A stretch of 20,086 bases of DNA from a virus. Position numbers and translations under genes: made by a program. The stretch is taken from the IMG/VR virus record IMGVR_UViG_3300020385_000084, positions 1 to 20,086 of that record. The stretch is one strand, 5' to 3'. The notes beneath the pieces were generated by a model. The model saw nothing but the letters and a program-made list of their open reading frames with translations. It was not told the origin of the DNA and did not search any database. Shown here in pieces: positions 3,142 through 15,535 of this stretch (positions are counted from its first letter, which is position 1; each line of letters starts with the position of its first letter).

Positions 3142-3293
3142 TAAAGAACATATTAGAAATGCTAGAATTTGTAAAAGATGACACTAAGAATTTAGGAGAG
3201 TTATCTAGGATAGCATTAGGGAGAAACAAAATACCAGAATCAATGAATGAGTTAATTCATTTAACACTATTAAGAAATGGCAGAAGAAGTTAA
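3138..3293 (+). CDS. Small hypothetical protein between tail genes
   Basis: A 51-aa ORF begins with an ATG inside the stop of the large tail gene (ATGA, translational coupling). Its last 17 bases overlap the start of the tape-measure-like gene in another frame. It fills a gap that would otherwise be empty in a tightly packed operon. The protein is helical and mixed in charge (MIKNILEMLEF start, LRNGRRS end), with no cysteine motif or membrane segment. The position next to the tape-measure gene would suit a tail-assembly chaperone or minor tail factor, but no family is recognised. Confidence 0.6.
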   Translation: MIKNILEMLEFVKDDTKNLGELSRIALGRNKIPESMNELIHLTLLRNGRRS

Positions 3294-4800
3294 GGTTAAT
3301 TTAAAAGCCGAGTTTGGCAGTCTTAGGAAAGACTTGCAAGATGTTACAACTGAATTAGTCGATATAAAAGACGAATCAAAAAAAGCTAGTAAAGGACTAG
3401 GGGGTATTAAAAAAGCAGTCACAGGAGTCGGTGCTGTTTTAACAGGTGGACTTTTTAAAGCAGGTGCAGTCATCTTTGAAAAACTCATGGAGCTATTCAT
3501 GGGTAATCAGAGAGTGATGGATGCTATGGCTGTGGGAGCTAATTTCTTGCAAAAAGCTTTTAATGATTTAGTAAGTTTTGTAACAGATTTTTCATTGCCT
3601 ACTTTTACCGAATTAAAAGATATAGTAATTCAAGGAACAATCGATAGGTTCAATGAATTAATGGAAGTCTTCGGATTACTTGGTAAAGCATTCATGAAAA
3701 TTGTCAAGGGAGATTTTTCTGGTGCTTTTGACACTATAAAACAAGCAGGTCTCGAAGTTGTTGATGTTTATACAGGTGTAGACAAATCAGTTGAAAAAGC
3801 AACAAAAGCAGTTGGAGACTATGCAAAAGAAACTTTTAAAGCTGCTAAAAATCAAGTTGATTTAAATAAACAAGCACAATTAGCTGAAGCACAAAACGCT
3901 AAACTCTTGTTGCAATTTAGTCAAGAAGCAGAACTTCAGAGACAGATTAGAGATGACACTTCACAGTCAATAGAAGATAGAATTGCTGCTAATGAAGAAT
4001 TAGGTAACGTCTTAGACAGACAAGCAGAAGTCATGATGGGTAATGCTCAAGATCAAGTCGATGCTGCTCAGGCTGCTTTAGACCTAGATAAAGAAAATCT
4101 AGATTTACAGATTGCACTTATAAATGCTGAGACATCTCTTATAGATGTTCAAGAAACAGTCACAGGTTTAAGATCAGAACAACTCACAAACACGAATTCT
4201 TTACTACAAGAACAAAAAGACCTGCAAGATGAAGTAATACAAAATGAAAAAGACTTAGCTGCTAAATCTCAAAAAATAAAAGACGATGCACAGAAGAAAG
4301 ATGACGATATTAAAAAGTCCGCAGAAGATGCTGCAATAGCACAAGACAATGCAACACTAGGGAGACTAGCAAATCTCGCAGGAGAAGGCACTAAAATAGG
4401 CAAGGCGATGGCAGTTGCAGATGTGACTAGAGAGACTGTTAAAGGTGTTCAAAATGCCTTTACAACAGCACAATCTTCTCCAATTACAGCAATTCCAATT
4501 ATTGGGCCTGCATATCCATTTATTCAAGCAGGAATAGCAGCAGCCTTTGGAGCAAAATCCATAAAAAGCATAGTAAGTGGATCAAAACCTTCTGTCTCTG
4601 GTGGTGGTGGAGGCGGTGGAGCTGCGATACCTTCTGCACCCCCAGACTTTAACATTGTAGGGGCATCGCCTGTTAATCAGTTAGCAGAAACCATAGGTGG
4701 AGAAAGTCAGAAACCAATTAAAGCTTTTGTCACATCTGGAGATGTATCAACAGCACAATCACTAGACAGAAATATAATAGAAAATGCATCAATAGGATAA
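3277..4800 (+). CDS. Tape-measure-like tail protein
   Basis: This 507-aa protein starts with a charged helix, followed by a Gly/Ala-rich hydrophobic stretch at about residues 43-75. A long coiled-coil region rich in Gln, Asp and Lys follows at about 180-360. Residues about 360-435 hold the hydrophobic GKAMAVADVTRETVKG...IPIIGPAYP segment typical of tape-measure C-termini. A run of seven glycines near 443-449 leads into a conserved-looking tail ending in SLDRNIIENASIG. Tape-measure proteins set tail length and occupy the tube lumen. At roughly 1.5 Angstrom per residue this would imply a tail of about 75 nm if full length is used; that is inference. It stops 2 bases before the protease gene. 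Confidence 0.72.
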   Translation: MAEEVKVNLKAEFGSLRKDLQDVTTELVDIKDESKKASKGLGGIKKAVTGVGAVLTGGLFKAGAVIFEKLMELFMGNQRVMDAMAVGANFLQKAFNDLVSFVTDFSLPTFTELKDIVIQGTIDRFNELMEVFGLLGKAFMKIVKGDFSGAFDTIKQAGLEVVDVYTGVDKSVEKATKAVGDYAKETFKAAKNQVDLNKQAQLAEAQNAKLLLQFSQEAELQRQIRDDTSQSIEDRIAANEELGNVLDRQAEVMMGNAQDQVDAAQAALDLDKENLDLQIALINAETSLIDVQETVTGLRSEQLTNTNSLLQEQKDLQDEVIQNEKDLAAKSQKIKDDAQKKDDDIKKSAEDAAIAQDNATLGRLANLAGEGTKIGKAMAVADVTRETVKGVQNAFTTAQSSPITAIPIIGPAYPFIQAGIAAAFGAKSIKSIVSGSKPSVSGGGGGGGAAIPSAPPDFNIVGASPVNQLAETIGGESQKPIKAFVTSGDVSTAQSLDRNIIENASIG

Positions 4801-4802
4801 AC

Positions 4803-5993
4803 ATGAAAATAATAGAATTAATACTAGACGAAGAAAACGAAGACAATGGTATCACAGCCATTTCAGTAGTAGAAAACCCTGCAATCGAAGAAGACTTTAT
4901 TGCCCTAAAAAACCAGGAAGTCAAGTTTGCAGAACAGGACAAAGAAAAGCGAATCTTAATGGGTGCAGCTCTTATTCCTAATAAACCAATATTCCGTAAA
5001 AATGAAGAAGACGAATATTACATTTTCTTCTCAAAAGATACTGTCAGAAAAGCCTCTGAGTTGTTTTTTATAAAAGGCAATCAATCTCAATCTACTCTAG
5101 AGCATAAAGTAGCCTTAGAAGGTCTTACTGTGGTGGAGAGTTGGATTGTAGAATCAGAACAAGATAAGTCTAGACATTATGGAATGGATGTTCCTATGGG
5201 AACTTGGATGGTTTCAATGAAAGTGAATTCTGATGAAGTTTGGAATGAATATGTCAAAAAAGGAAAGGTCAAAGGGTTTTCAATAGAAGCTTATTTCTCA
5301 GATAAAATGTCAAGACCAAAAGACAAAACTTTGAATGAATCTCTAGAGGATGAAGCCAATGAGCTTTTAGACGAATTAAAAGACTTTCTCTCTAGTGAAA
5401 ATTTAGAGTCATATTCTGATTATCCAGATGCTGTATCTAATAATGCTAAAAGAGGAATTGATCTGAATGAAAAAAATAACAATAAGTGTGCAACACAAGT
5501 TGGTAAAGTAAGAGCGCAACAATTAGCTAAAAAAGAAGCTATAACTGTTGAAACTGTCAAGAGAATGTTTAGCTATCTATCAAGAGCAGGAGAATACTAT
5601 GATGAAGGGGATACTAAAGCCTGTGGAACTATCTCTTACTTATTGTGGGGTGGCAAAGCAGGTCTTAGATGGGCAGGATCAAAACTTCGTGAATTAGATA
5701 TGTTAGAAGAAGATTTAAAAAAACCTTGTTATGCAGGTTATGAAATGATAGGTTTTAAAATTAAGAATGGGCGTAAAGTTCCTAATTGTGTTCCTATGAA
5801 TAGTCAAAAACTAGAAACAATGGTAGTCAATGAAGATTATGCTGTCATAGATGACCGCCTTGCCTATTCAACACAAGAAAAAGCAGAAGAAATGGCTGCA
5901 AGTCTTGGATGTTCTGGATTCCATAGCCATGATTTAGAAAACAAGACCTGGTTTATGCCTTGTGAATCACATAATAACGATAAAGATGCCTAG
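4803..5993 (+). CDS. XkdF-like prohead serine protease, multidomain
   Basis: Residues 1-180 resemble the XkdF/prohead protease group: MKIIELILDEEN start, ISVVENPAIEEDFIAL, then STLEH (H101) followed by VVESWIVE, and VKGFSIEAYF with a candidate nucleophile S160. Such proteases clear scaffold and trim capsid during head maturation. Residues about 204-300 form a separate domain (YPDAVSNNAKRGIDLN, KCATQVGKVRAQQL, GDTKACGTISYLLWGGKAG). Two small Cys-containing segments follow: GYEMIGFKIKNGRKVPNCVP near 312-331, and an end with GCSGFHSHD and WFMPCESH. The family's usual core is much shorter, so about half of the protein is extension. It stands directly before the scaffold and capsid genes, as expected. 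The protease call is fairly firm; roles of the added domains are unknown. Confidence 0.75.
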   Translation: MKIIELILDEENEDNGITAISVVENPAIEEDFIALKNQEVKFAEQDKEKRILMGAALIPNKPIFRKNEEDEYYIFFSKDTVRKASELFFIKGNQSQSTLEHKVALEGLTVVESWIVESEQDKSRHYGMDVPMGTWMVSMKVNSDEVWNEYVKKGKVKGFSIEAYFSDKMSRPKDKTLNESLEDEANELLDELKDFLSSENLESYSDYPDAVSNNAKRGIDLNEKNNNKCATQVGKVRAQQLAKKEAITVETVKRMFSYLSRAGEYYDEGDTKACGTISYLLWGGKAGLRWAGSKLRELDMLEEDLKKPCYAGYEMIGFKIKNGRKVPNCVPMNSQKLETMVVNEDYAVIDDRLAYSTQEKAEEMAASLGCSGFHSHDLENKTWFMPCESHNNDKDA

Positions 5994-6126
5994 AAAGAAA
6001 CAAAAAACAGTAAGTCGCACATCTCCTAAAGGTGGAAAGCGTGGTTGTTTATGTAGAGACCGCAAAACTTATGATTCTAAGTGCTGTGATGGCTCTATGA
6101 TAGCACAAGGAATTGGAAAAATATAA
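5986..6126 (+). CDS. 46-aa basic Cys-rich peptide (CxC...CCDG)
   Basis: The ATG overlaps the last 8 bases of the protease gene, and the ORF ends with TAA at 6124-6126. The protein has a basic N-terminus (MPRKKQKTVSR...KGGKRG), then CLCRDRKTYDSKCCDGS and the tail AQGIGKI. The spacing of CxC, K-x-Y and CC resembles the SEC-C zinc motif found at the SecA C-terminus, with one extra residue. It also shares CxC...CDG(S/T) with the 23-aa peptide at 14544. Zinc binding and nucleic-acid or scaffold contact are plausible but unproven. I believe similar short peptides occur in other flavobacterial phages, but I cannot check that here. Confidence 0.65.
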   Translation: MPRKKQKTVSRTSPKGGKRGCLCRDRKTYDSKCCDGSMIAQGIGKI

Positions 6127-13884: not shown

Positions 13885-14024
13885 TGGAAGAATTAAGAAT
13901 TGGTTTCGTTAACTTTTTTGCTTTAGGCATTTCTATAAGTGAAGCGAATCCTATGCTTCAGTCAGTCAGTTTAATACTTGCAGTAGTATATACATCTATA
14001 TCAATTTATAAAAAGCTAAAGTGA
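13884..14024 (+). CDS. 46-aa single-TM lysis-cassette protein
   Basis: The ATG overlaps the fibre stop (TAATG) and the stop overlaps the next ATG (TGATG). The product (MEELRIGFVNFFALGIS..., then SVSLILAVVYTSISIYKKLK) has a short N-terminal amphipathic part and one hydrophobic segment at about residues 27-42 followed by a basic end. Small one-TM proteins of this type precede holin/endolysin genes in many marine phages. A holin, antiholin or pinholin-like role is possible; no family can be named. Confidence 0.6.
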   Translation: MEELRIGFVNFFALGISISEANPMLQSVSLILAVVYTSISIYKKLK

Positions 14025-14389
14025 TGAACAGCAGAGAACGAAAAGACATAAGGGGCTACATTGGAAGTGGAGTTGTTTTCCTTTTTGTAATTCTTTTGTT
14101 GATTTTTTTAAGTTGGAAAGAAATTCCAAACTCTAACAATGATTCTTTCAAACTTATTGTAGGAGCTTTAATTGCCACAATAGGAGCTGCGGTTTATGTT
14201 TTTATAGGAAAAGATCCAAACGAGGTCATGGAACTGCAAAGAAAAAACGATTCTTTAGAAACAAAAGTTGATGCTTTAGTTGCTGAAAAAGACAGGCTTG
14301 AAAGCCTTATTATAAAAATGCAGGAAGATCTGATTGATAGAATCCTTTTAGTTTCTGCAATGAATCACGATAAAAATAACGAAAAATGA
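14024..14389 (+). CDS. Two-TM coiled-coil membrane protein, candidate holin
   Basis: I choose the ATG at 14024, which overlaps the preceding stop, over the GTG at 14021. The 121-aa product has a basic N-terminus, TM1 at about residues 12-30 (GYIGSGVVFLFVILLLIFLS), a short polar loop, TM2 at about 43-61 (KLIVGALIATIGAAVYVFIG), and a charged coiled coil at about 66-108. Two TM segments with a cytoplasmic or periplasmic coil fit a class II-type holin or an accessory lysis protein. The exact lysis role cannot be decided between this gene and the one at 15155. Confidence 0.6.
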   Translation: MNSRERKDIRGYIGSGVVFLFVILLLIFLSWKEIPNSNNDSFKLIVGALIATIGAAVYVFIGKDPNEVMELQRKNDSLETKVDALVAEKDRLESLIIKMQEDLIDRILLVSAMNHDKNNEK

Positions 14390-14547
14390 TTATAACATTA
14401 TCTCTATTATTAATAGCTGCTGCTATTGTTGTAGGTCTTACTTACAATGGTGTGTTTGCAGACAAAGACAAAGACGGAATTCCAGACAAAGTGGAAGAAA
14501 AATTCCAGGAAGTAAAAAAGAAAGTTAAATCAAAACTAAAAAAATGA
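14386..14547 (+). CDS. 53-aa membrane peptide with DxDxDG-type acidic motif
   Basis: Coupled on both sides by ATGA overlaps. A hydrophobic N-terminal segment (ITLSLLLIAAAIVVGLTY, residues about 3-20) acts as a TM or signal anchor. It is followed by FADKDKDGIPDKVEEKF, where DKDKDGIPD matches the calcium-binding DxDxDG loop seen in thrombospondin type 3 and related repeats. The tail is very basic (KKKVKSKLKK). Such a layout fits a small inner-membrane protein with its charged part in the periplasm, for example a spanin-like factor. Calcium binding by a single loop is uncertain. Confidence 0.62.
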   Translation: MIITLSLLLIAAAIVVGLTYNGVFADKDKDGIPDKVEEKFQEVKKKVKSKLKK

Positions 14548-14615
14548 TTAAGCCTTGTCAATGTGGACAAACGTCCGATCCTAGCGGAAACTGTGACGGA
14601 ACACATATAAAATGA
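14544..14615 (+). CDS. 23-aa micropeptide with CxC...CDGTH motif
   Basis: Starts in the previous stop (ATGA) and its own stop overlaps the next ATG (ATGA), so the gene lies in a four-gene overlap chain; this supports real translation despite its size. The whole product is MIKPC, QCGQTSDPSGN, CDGTHIK: three cysteines (C5, C7, C17) and H21 in C-x-C-x9-C-D-G-T-H. The CDGSH iron-sulphur signature is C-x-C-x2-(S/T)-x3-P-x-C-D-G-(S/A/T)-H, so this version has one extra residue between the second and third cysteines. The PCxCG start also recalls SEC-C zinc motifs. Metal binding is inference. Confidence 0.6.
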   Translation: MIKPCQCGQTSDPSGNCDGTHIK

Positions 14616-14710
14616 ATTTCTACAACATATTTGGTTCTTACATAGTATTCCGCCTTTTAGAGTATTTAGTGAAACAAATATGGCTTCAGTTTAGTAATGG
14701 AAAAGATTAG
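14612..14710 (+). CDS. 32-aa amphipathic/membrane-type peptide
   Basis: ATGA overlap with the micropeptide before it, and a 14-base overlap with the endolysin start. The product is hydrophobic and aromatic (MNFYNIFGSYIVFRLLEYLV, then KQIWLQFSNGKD), with one possible membrane helix at about residues 4-20 interrupted by an Arg. It sits directly before the endolysin gene, so a small accessory lysis role or a translational-coupling leader is possible. Because of its small size, coding is supported mainly by the continuous chain of overlaps. Confidence 0.45.
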   Translation: MNFYNIFGSYIVFRLLEYLVKQIWLQFSNGKD

Positions 14711-15158
14711 CCAAAACATATCATTTAAAGAAGCAACTAAATCCAATACTGCTTTACGTCTTAATTTAAATAACAATCCAGATGCTTATCAAGTTACTAA
14801 TATGGTTGGTGTTGCTGAAAATGTTTTCGAGCCTCTTAGAAAATATGTAGGCGGTGCAATAAAAATCAACTCAATGTTTAGATCAGAAGAATTAAATACT
14901 GCTATCGGTGGCTCAAGTCGATCACAACATATAGAAGGCAGAGCGATGGATTTAGACGACACTTTTGGTCACAAATCAAATGCTGAGATGTTTCACTATA
15001 TAAAAGACAATCTAAATTTTGACCAATTGATTTGGGAATTTGGAGATGACAAAAATCCTAATTGGATTCATGTCAGCTATATATCAGAAGAAGAAAACAG
15101 AGGCAGATGCTTACGAGCTGAGAAAGTAAATGGAAGAACATCTTATAGGGTTATATGA
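14697..15158 (+). CDS. M15-type peptidase endolysin
   Basis: A 153-aa peptidoglycan-cleaving enzyme in the M15 (D-Ala-D-Ala carboxypeptidase/VanY-like) zinc peptidase group. The metal and catalytic signature is present: SRSQHIEGRAMDLDD with H78 and D85, IWEFG with candidate E114, and WIHVSY with H125; R62 in MFRSEEL suits substrate binding. There is no signal peptide or membrane helix, so export through the membrane must be by a holin, which the neighbouring genes can provide. It shares 4 bases with the downstream holin-type gene. Full length and confident. Confidence 0.88.
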   Translation: MEKISQNISFKEATKSNTALRLNLNNNPDAYQVTNMVGVAENVFEPLRKYVGGAIKINSMFRSEELNTAIGGSSRSQHIEGRAMDLDDTFGHKSNAEMFHYIKDNLNFDQLIWEFGDDKNPNWIHVSYISEEENRGRCLRAEKVNGRTSYRVI

Positions 15159-15535
15159 TAAAAGCATTACTTAGTTTATTAGGCAAAGGATCCTCTAGCA
15201 GGTCTCCAATTGGGGGTTTAGCACTAGACATTAGAGAAGCTATAAAAGGCAAAGAATTAGATCCCCAAAGGCTTATTGAGCTGCAATCAGAAATAAACAA
15301 ACTAGAGGCACAACACAGAAGCATTTTTGTTGCAGGATGGAGACCTTTTATAGGATGGATTTGTGGTTTTGCTTTAGCCTATAATTTTATAATAAGAGAC
15401 CTTGCTATTTGGGCATTTGGAATTCAAAGCGTTCCTGCTCCTTTACAGATGGAACATTTAATGACTGTTCTTTTAGGAATGCTAGGATTAGGCGGAATGA
15501 GAACATTTGAAAAGCTTAAAGACAAAACTCGGTAA
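15155..15535 (+). CDS. Holin, GTA_holin_3TM-like
   Basis: A 126-aa protein coupled to the endolysin by ATGA. An N-terminal helix and a charged region (LDIREAIKGKELDPQRLIEL...) precede hydrophobic segments at about 58-88 (FVAGWRPFIGWICGFALAYN) and 101-116 (HLMTVLLGMLGLGGM), ending RTFEKLKDKTR. The AGWRPFIGW and LMTVLLGMLGLGGMRTFEK pattern matches the 'holin of 3TMs' (GTA_holin_3TM) family. These proteins make membrane holes that release the endolysin. The next tiny gene starts in its stop (TAATG). Confidence 0.78.
   Translation: MIKALLSLLGKGSSSRSPIGGLALDIREAIKGKELDPQRLIELQSEINKLEAQHRSIFVAGWRPFIGWICGFALAYNFIIRDLAIWAFGIQSVPAPLQMEHLMTVLLGMLGLGGMRTFEKLKDKTR

Follow-up and report, generated by a model that had tools for sequence, protein, structure and literature searches.

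Genes and motif at the locus

The window, i.e. the whole DNA stretch analysed, is a 20,086-base IMG/VR virus record that does not necessarily represent a complete genome. It contains a 23-codon gene in a chain of small open reading frames (ORFs) ahead of an endolysin gene and a holin gene, and a second Cys-containing micro-ORF at a distance:

14021..14389, + strand: p121, 121 amino acids (aa), two hydrophobic (predicted transmembrane, TM) segments and a C-terminal coiled coil; the upstream, conserved genomic companion of the peptide
14386..14547, + strand: p53, 53 aa, a TM segment, DKDKDGIPDKVE (Ca-binding-like) and a charged tail; ATGA-coupled to the peptide gene
14544..14615, + strand: x9 CDGSH-like micro-protein, 23 aa, MIKPCQCGQTSDPSGNCDGTHIK; an ORF from ATG to TGA, recognised by its family and its conservation
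14556..14606, + strand: 17-codon motif CQCGQTSDPSGNCDGTH with the predicted ligands Cys1, Cys3, Cys13 and His17; identified by pattern match and ligand invariance
14612..14710, + strand: 32-aa ORF with one hydrophobic segment; ATGA-coupled downstream of the peptide ORF
14697..15158, + strand: M15 peptidase/endolysin (PF08291, 1.4e-13; phrog_894, 1.4e-27)
15155..15535, + strand: GTA-type 3TM holin (PF11351, 1.8e-12; phrog_3427, 3.4e-25)
5986-6126, + strand: second Cys micro-ORF, MPRKKQKTVSRTSPKGGKRGCLCRDRKTYDSKCCDGSMIAQGIGKI (CxC-x9-CCDGS), directly after an XkdF-like protein; a relative is present in L088

The original prediction had described a micro-ORF held in an ATGA-ATGA chain within a lysis cassette, and its coordinates as well as both overlaps were borne out. 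The TGA of the 53-aa ORF (14545-14547) lies inside the ATGA shared with the start of the peptide gene, the ATG of the 32-aa ORF (14612) lies inside the ATGA shared with its stop, and the M15 endolysin and the GTA-type holin identified downstream confirm the setting. Four residues precede the first Cys, and the motif C-x-C-x9-C-D-G-T-H can be read in the ORF exactly as claimed. The 32-aa downstream ORF is kept in L135, L507 and L018. ORFs resembling p53 are found in relatives both with and without the peptide, and DKDKDGIPDALE versions recur in flavophage lysis cassettes.

Frame dependence and conservation of the motif

As the window peptide matches no family in Pfam, PHROG or NCBIfam, DNA was searched with the back-translated motif. 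The in-frame pattern CxCG-x8-CDG[ST]H, in which the G is the first of the nine residues, was present in at least 120 IMG/VR stretches, compared with 11 for the control, a pattern that is one base shorter and thus breaks the frame. The spacing that is one residue longer (x10) was found in 3 IMG/VR stretches, the canonical x8 spacing, one residue shorter, in at least 120. The window has a single match to the degenerate DNA pattern, and no match was seen in 100 dinucleotide shuffles. Of the in-frame matches listed, nearly all belong to ORFs of 22-60 aa or form the ends of longer proteins, and the x9 pattern is also matched in cellular genomes. The viral matches are redundant, 119 hits corresponding to 90 unique peptides, and include a few evident chance matches. 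Searches of cultured phages by tblastn with peptides of 23-26 aa gave nothing or matches with E >= 3, which is weak evidence because the queries are so short.

Because this first pattern imposes the Cys and His residues, two extra scans of viral stretches were performed with the ligands left free. The first was anchored at CxCG-T-[ND]P-G-C with DGSH free, and C-[DN]-[GATS]-[ST]-H, including the His, was present in 119 of the 120 matches listed. The second was anchored at G-T-[ND]P-G-DG[ST]H with the Cys free, and all 120 matches listed have Cys at positions 1, 3 and 13. Two sites that the pattern does not impose are also highly conserved, i.e. S/T6 in 87 of the 90 unique viral peptides (97%; T in the window) and G11 in 84 of 90 (93%). 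At both sites the third codon bases are mixed, and both Ser codon boxes are used. The x9 consensus is C-x-C-G-x-[TS]-x-[ND]-P-x-G-x-C-D-G-[ST]-H.

Pooled over the viral copies, dN/dS is 0.23, and over the cellular copies 0.10; for the nine unimposed sites the values are 0.42 and 0.21, respectively. Between the window and L135, whose holin is the most similar among the relatives, the motif has five synonymous changes and no non-synonymous change. The x9 peptide is under purifying selection, and both expectations that had been formulated for a genuine gene, Cys/His positions that do not vary and a dN/dS below 1, agree with these values.

A length of just 23 codons and the lack of a match among database families are also what would be seen with a non-coding or chance ORF, the motif being a sequence accident or a nucleic-acid element. 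That reading is already strongly contradicted by the dependence of the counts on the frame, by the invariance of the ligands, by conservation that acts at the protein level and not at third bases, and by the presence or absence of the gene as a unit in relatives, and we regard it as hardly credible. A chance motif is ruled out by the frame control together with the dinucleotide shuffles. The data support that 14544-14615 is a real, selected gene in a lysis cassette, with a near-CDGSH motif and conserved Cys and His residues.

Relation to CDGSH iron-sulfur domains

The CISD consensus is PhiCXCXX(S/T)XXXPPhiCDG(S/T/A)H, to which a beta-sandwich dimerisation module (N-strand, P motif) is added (PMC3174974); the eight residues between its second and third Cys agree with the original prediction, which had set this spacing against the nine residues found here. 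With the CISD/NEET proteins (PF09360; 3TBM, 3TBN, 3TBO, mitoNEET), the window peptide shares the order of three Cys and one His (C-x-C...C-x3-H), the S/T at position 6, C-D-G-[ST]-H and the profile similarity. It differs by its x9 spacing, by the G11 in place of P11 (two residues before CDGSH), by an NPxG turn, and by belonging to stand-alone proteins of 22-30 aa; at a total of 23 aa it has no beta-sandwich and no N-strand/P motif. The hydrophobic residue that follows P11 in CISDs is often Y, L or F in x9 peptides and N in the window. For single x9 proteins the PF09360 (zf-CDGSH) score does not exceed 14-16 bits, below the cut-off of 29.5, and the window peptide itself has no match to this family; the exception is L231, a bacterial protein with a first x9 and a second x8 motif, which reaches 61 bits. 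Because spacing, P11 and beta-sandwich all deviate, we classify the x9 peptide, judging from its sequence, as a CDGSH variant outside CISD membership.

The relationship itself is visible at the profile level. A profile of 67 x9 peptides aligned with one of 18 canonical x8 phage peptides at an hhalign probability of 97%, with a one-residue gap, and in a profile search of the PDB three solved CISDs ranked first (3tbm, E 0.002; 3tbo, 0.02; 3tbn, 0.055). Furthermore, the same carriers bear interchangeable spacing variants. The WYL_2 phage domain is combined with x9 in L017 (identified by Pfam) and with x8 in a clearly similar protein of L339, and the SAP-like phage domain with x9 in L086 and with x10 in L455, which argues for homology of the spacing variants. 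AF2 predicted the block of residues 11-20 of a 41-aa relative with a pLDDT of 84 (69 overall), and Foldseek retrieved only mitoNEET chains for this model, at a non-significant E of 9.3. L231 modelled alone gave a poor fold (pLDDT 42).

Stand-alone canonical x8 phage peptides (e.g. MKKCTCGESQTKPTCDGSHKNKGK, L345) resemble the x9 peptides in being tiny and either free or appended to WYL_2, and differ by an x8 loop with P11 and by additional carriers that resemble 2OG-Fe(II) oxygenases. Such x8 peptides are common in viral contigs (L335-L454), free or fused; the fusions are N-terminal to apparent 2OG-Fe(II) oxygenases, C-terminal to WYL_2, or within an isoaspartate methyltransferase-like protein.

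The SEC-C zinc motif has a C-x-C-x8-C core and is used as a portable tail, and in these two features lies its likeness to the peptide. In SEC-C, however, the fourth ligand is adjacent to the third Cys, and DGSH is lacking. Membership in SEC-C (PF02810, C-x-C-x8-C-[H/C]) was ruled out, because the fourth ligand of the peptide is a His four residues after Cys3 and there is no Pfam match.

Occurrence in phages

Stand-alone viral copies (up to 60 aa) were found at 87 loci among the matches listed. Within this set, a p121-type protein is encoded directly upstream at 32 loci and a GTA holin directly upstream at 11, while a GTA holin lies within 1.5 kb at 43 loci. When loci were anchored at p121, the peptide gene followed within 260 nt in 49 of the 76 loci with enough sequence, always in the x9 form; this fraction may be inflated because the query was built from the p121 copies of peptide-bearing loci. 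At the other 27 loci the ORF immediately after p121 is a p53-like one or a different small membrane ORF, and the peptide gene is therefore an optional unit. When loci were anchored at the holin, the peptide was present upstream only in L135 and L137, i.e. in 2 of the 56 loci with sufficient upstream sequence. As the gene is missing from 27 of the 76 loci with p121 and from most loci anchored at the holin, p121 does not need the peptide. In L141, L159 and L199 the peptide is located just after the holin. For p121, no match was found among cultured phages.

The expectation that homologous phages would have the ORF is thus correct for a part of the relatives, but many close lysis cassettes do not contain it. 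A core lysis gene was ruled out by its absence from most holin-anchored cassettes and by its absence as a unit downstream of many p121 genes. In phages, the peptide gene is accessory, and its neighbour in the lysis cassette encodes a membrane/coiled-coil protein.

Occurrence in bacteria and fusions to other proteins

The x9 form exists as proteins of 22-30 aa in phages, Flavobacteriaceae and Paenibacillus. The Paenibacillus copies have 25 aa, actinobacterial bins encode copies of 49 aa, and Opitutae have two tandem motifs. Opitutae-type proteins with two tandem x9 motifs were seen in L232, L245, L274, L276, L278, L293, L298, L309, L327 and L333. The flavobacterial form (CGCG) has the gene for YceI, a lipid-binding protein, directly upstream in 48 of 68 loci, and the distance from the YceI stop to the first Cys is 20-81 nt over 50 loci. 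The gene is infrequent: it was found in 10 of 199 sampled genomes of Flavobacteriaceae, the seed being among the 10, and in 1 of 296 genomes of the phylum sample, which is the seed itself. A universal flavobacterial gene was ruled out by these numbers.

The x9 peptides are a conserved, widespread family of flavobacterial phages and of bacteria, and the framing as a phage-encoded oddity was too narrow in two respects, because the same peptide is also a cellular micro-protein family and because stand-alone canonical x8 CDGSH peptides also occur in phages. The family is apparently uncatalogued, representing a CDGSH subclass that Pfam, NCBIfam and PHROGs have missed, and no description was found in the open-access literature.

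Carriers of the x9 motif identified with Pfam are the XkdF protease, WYL_2, YceI, a PSP1/RicT-like protein and ribosomal protein S16. In L244 and L262 a single polypeptide comprises an N-terminal x9 motif, a TM segment and a YceI domain. A C-terminal x9 motif is found on a flavobacterial PSP1/RicT-like protein and on a bacterial ribosomal protein S16 (L234, L329), and in other phages an x9 CDGSH motif is fused to the C-terminus of XkdF.

A putative metal site and its possible partner

A metal site in the peptide is likely, because four invariant ligands in CDGSH order are accompanied by conserved second-shell residues. The three Cys and the His would bind one metal centre, for which [2Fe-2S] is slightly preferred over Zn2+ because the sequence follows that of CDGSH proteins rather than SEC-C; the stability of a [2Fe-2S] site is not assured, because P11 and the CISD beta-sandwich are missing. 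The peptide is too small for that beta-sandwich and has no dimerisation module, so that it would need a partner or self-association, and it may act as an oligomer or in a partner-bound form. In phages, gene order and predicted topology make p121 the best candidate for a partner: its two predicted TM segments presumably place both ends on the same side, in the cytoplasm, where the coiled coil, like the peptide, is predicted to reside. The bacterial peptide goes with YceI instead. Our preferred reading, which we consider reasonably probable, is that the gene encodes a metal-site peptide of minimal CDGSH type, which would, upon translation, act as an optional cofactor-bearing subunit of a late lysis/membrane module, with p121 as the likeliest partner. 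A bolder version, possible but doubtful, is that a stand-alone peptide of 22-30 aa would suffice on its own as a minimal NEET-type module with [2Fe-2S] or mixed metals, with no need of the beta-sandwich. Phages and bacteria would exchange it as a mobile cofactor tag, which occurs free next to p121 (phages) or YceI (flavobacteria) and as an extension of phage protease, of RicT-like proteins and of ribosomal proteins.

The modular use of the motif, attached N- or C-terminally to XkdF protease, WYL_2, SAP-like, YceI, PSP1/RicT-like and S16 proteins, makes a zinc tail a serious rival. The peptide would then be a Zn2+ knuckle that serves as a portable tail for binding other proteins or the ribosome, in the manner of the SecA SEC-C tail, without a redox or Fe-S role, which would also be compatible with its small size, insufficient for a CISD beta-sandwich, and with the CC-type relative CLCRDRKTYDSKCCDGS (5986-6126) in the same phage. 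However, the fourth ligand is of the CDGSH type (C-x3-H) and not C-H or C-C, the CDGSH second shell (S/T6, D, G and S/T) is kept, a SEC-C match in Pfam is absent, and it is CISDs that the PDB profile search finds, so we judge a zinc tail to be unlikely. Another view starts from the high sequence similarity of the phage and host versions: the phage copy could imitate the host micro-protein of 26-30 aa from the YceI operon and act in trans on a host partner or on iron/sulfur handling, and not in lysis. The position of the host version directly behind YceI in the flavobacterial CGCG loci and the N-terminal x9 fusions to YceI fit this idea, but the phage copies go together with p121 and the lysis region, and copies fused to phage proteins are ill-suited to a host target. 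We consider such mimicry improbable.

If the peptide binds metal, it would be one of the smallest genetically encoded metal-site proteins in nature. The x9 form offers a minimal system for asking whether the CDGSH loop alone can hold [2Fe-2S]. It also connects an Fe-S-type motif with phage lysis modules and, in marine flavobacteria, with YceI. The tail-tip proteins of the phage lambda gpL type are a precedent for a phage-encoded Fe-S protein, but they are large structural proteins with another fold and motif. A discussion of gpL that includes an iron-sulfur cluster is given in PMC10721106.

In L112, near 3247-3417, a phage protein of 96 aa combines an N-terminal CGCGRSPTGKCIGWH motif with a C-terminal x9 motif, which suggests that the Cys/His loops of phages form a wider superfamily.
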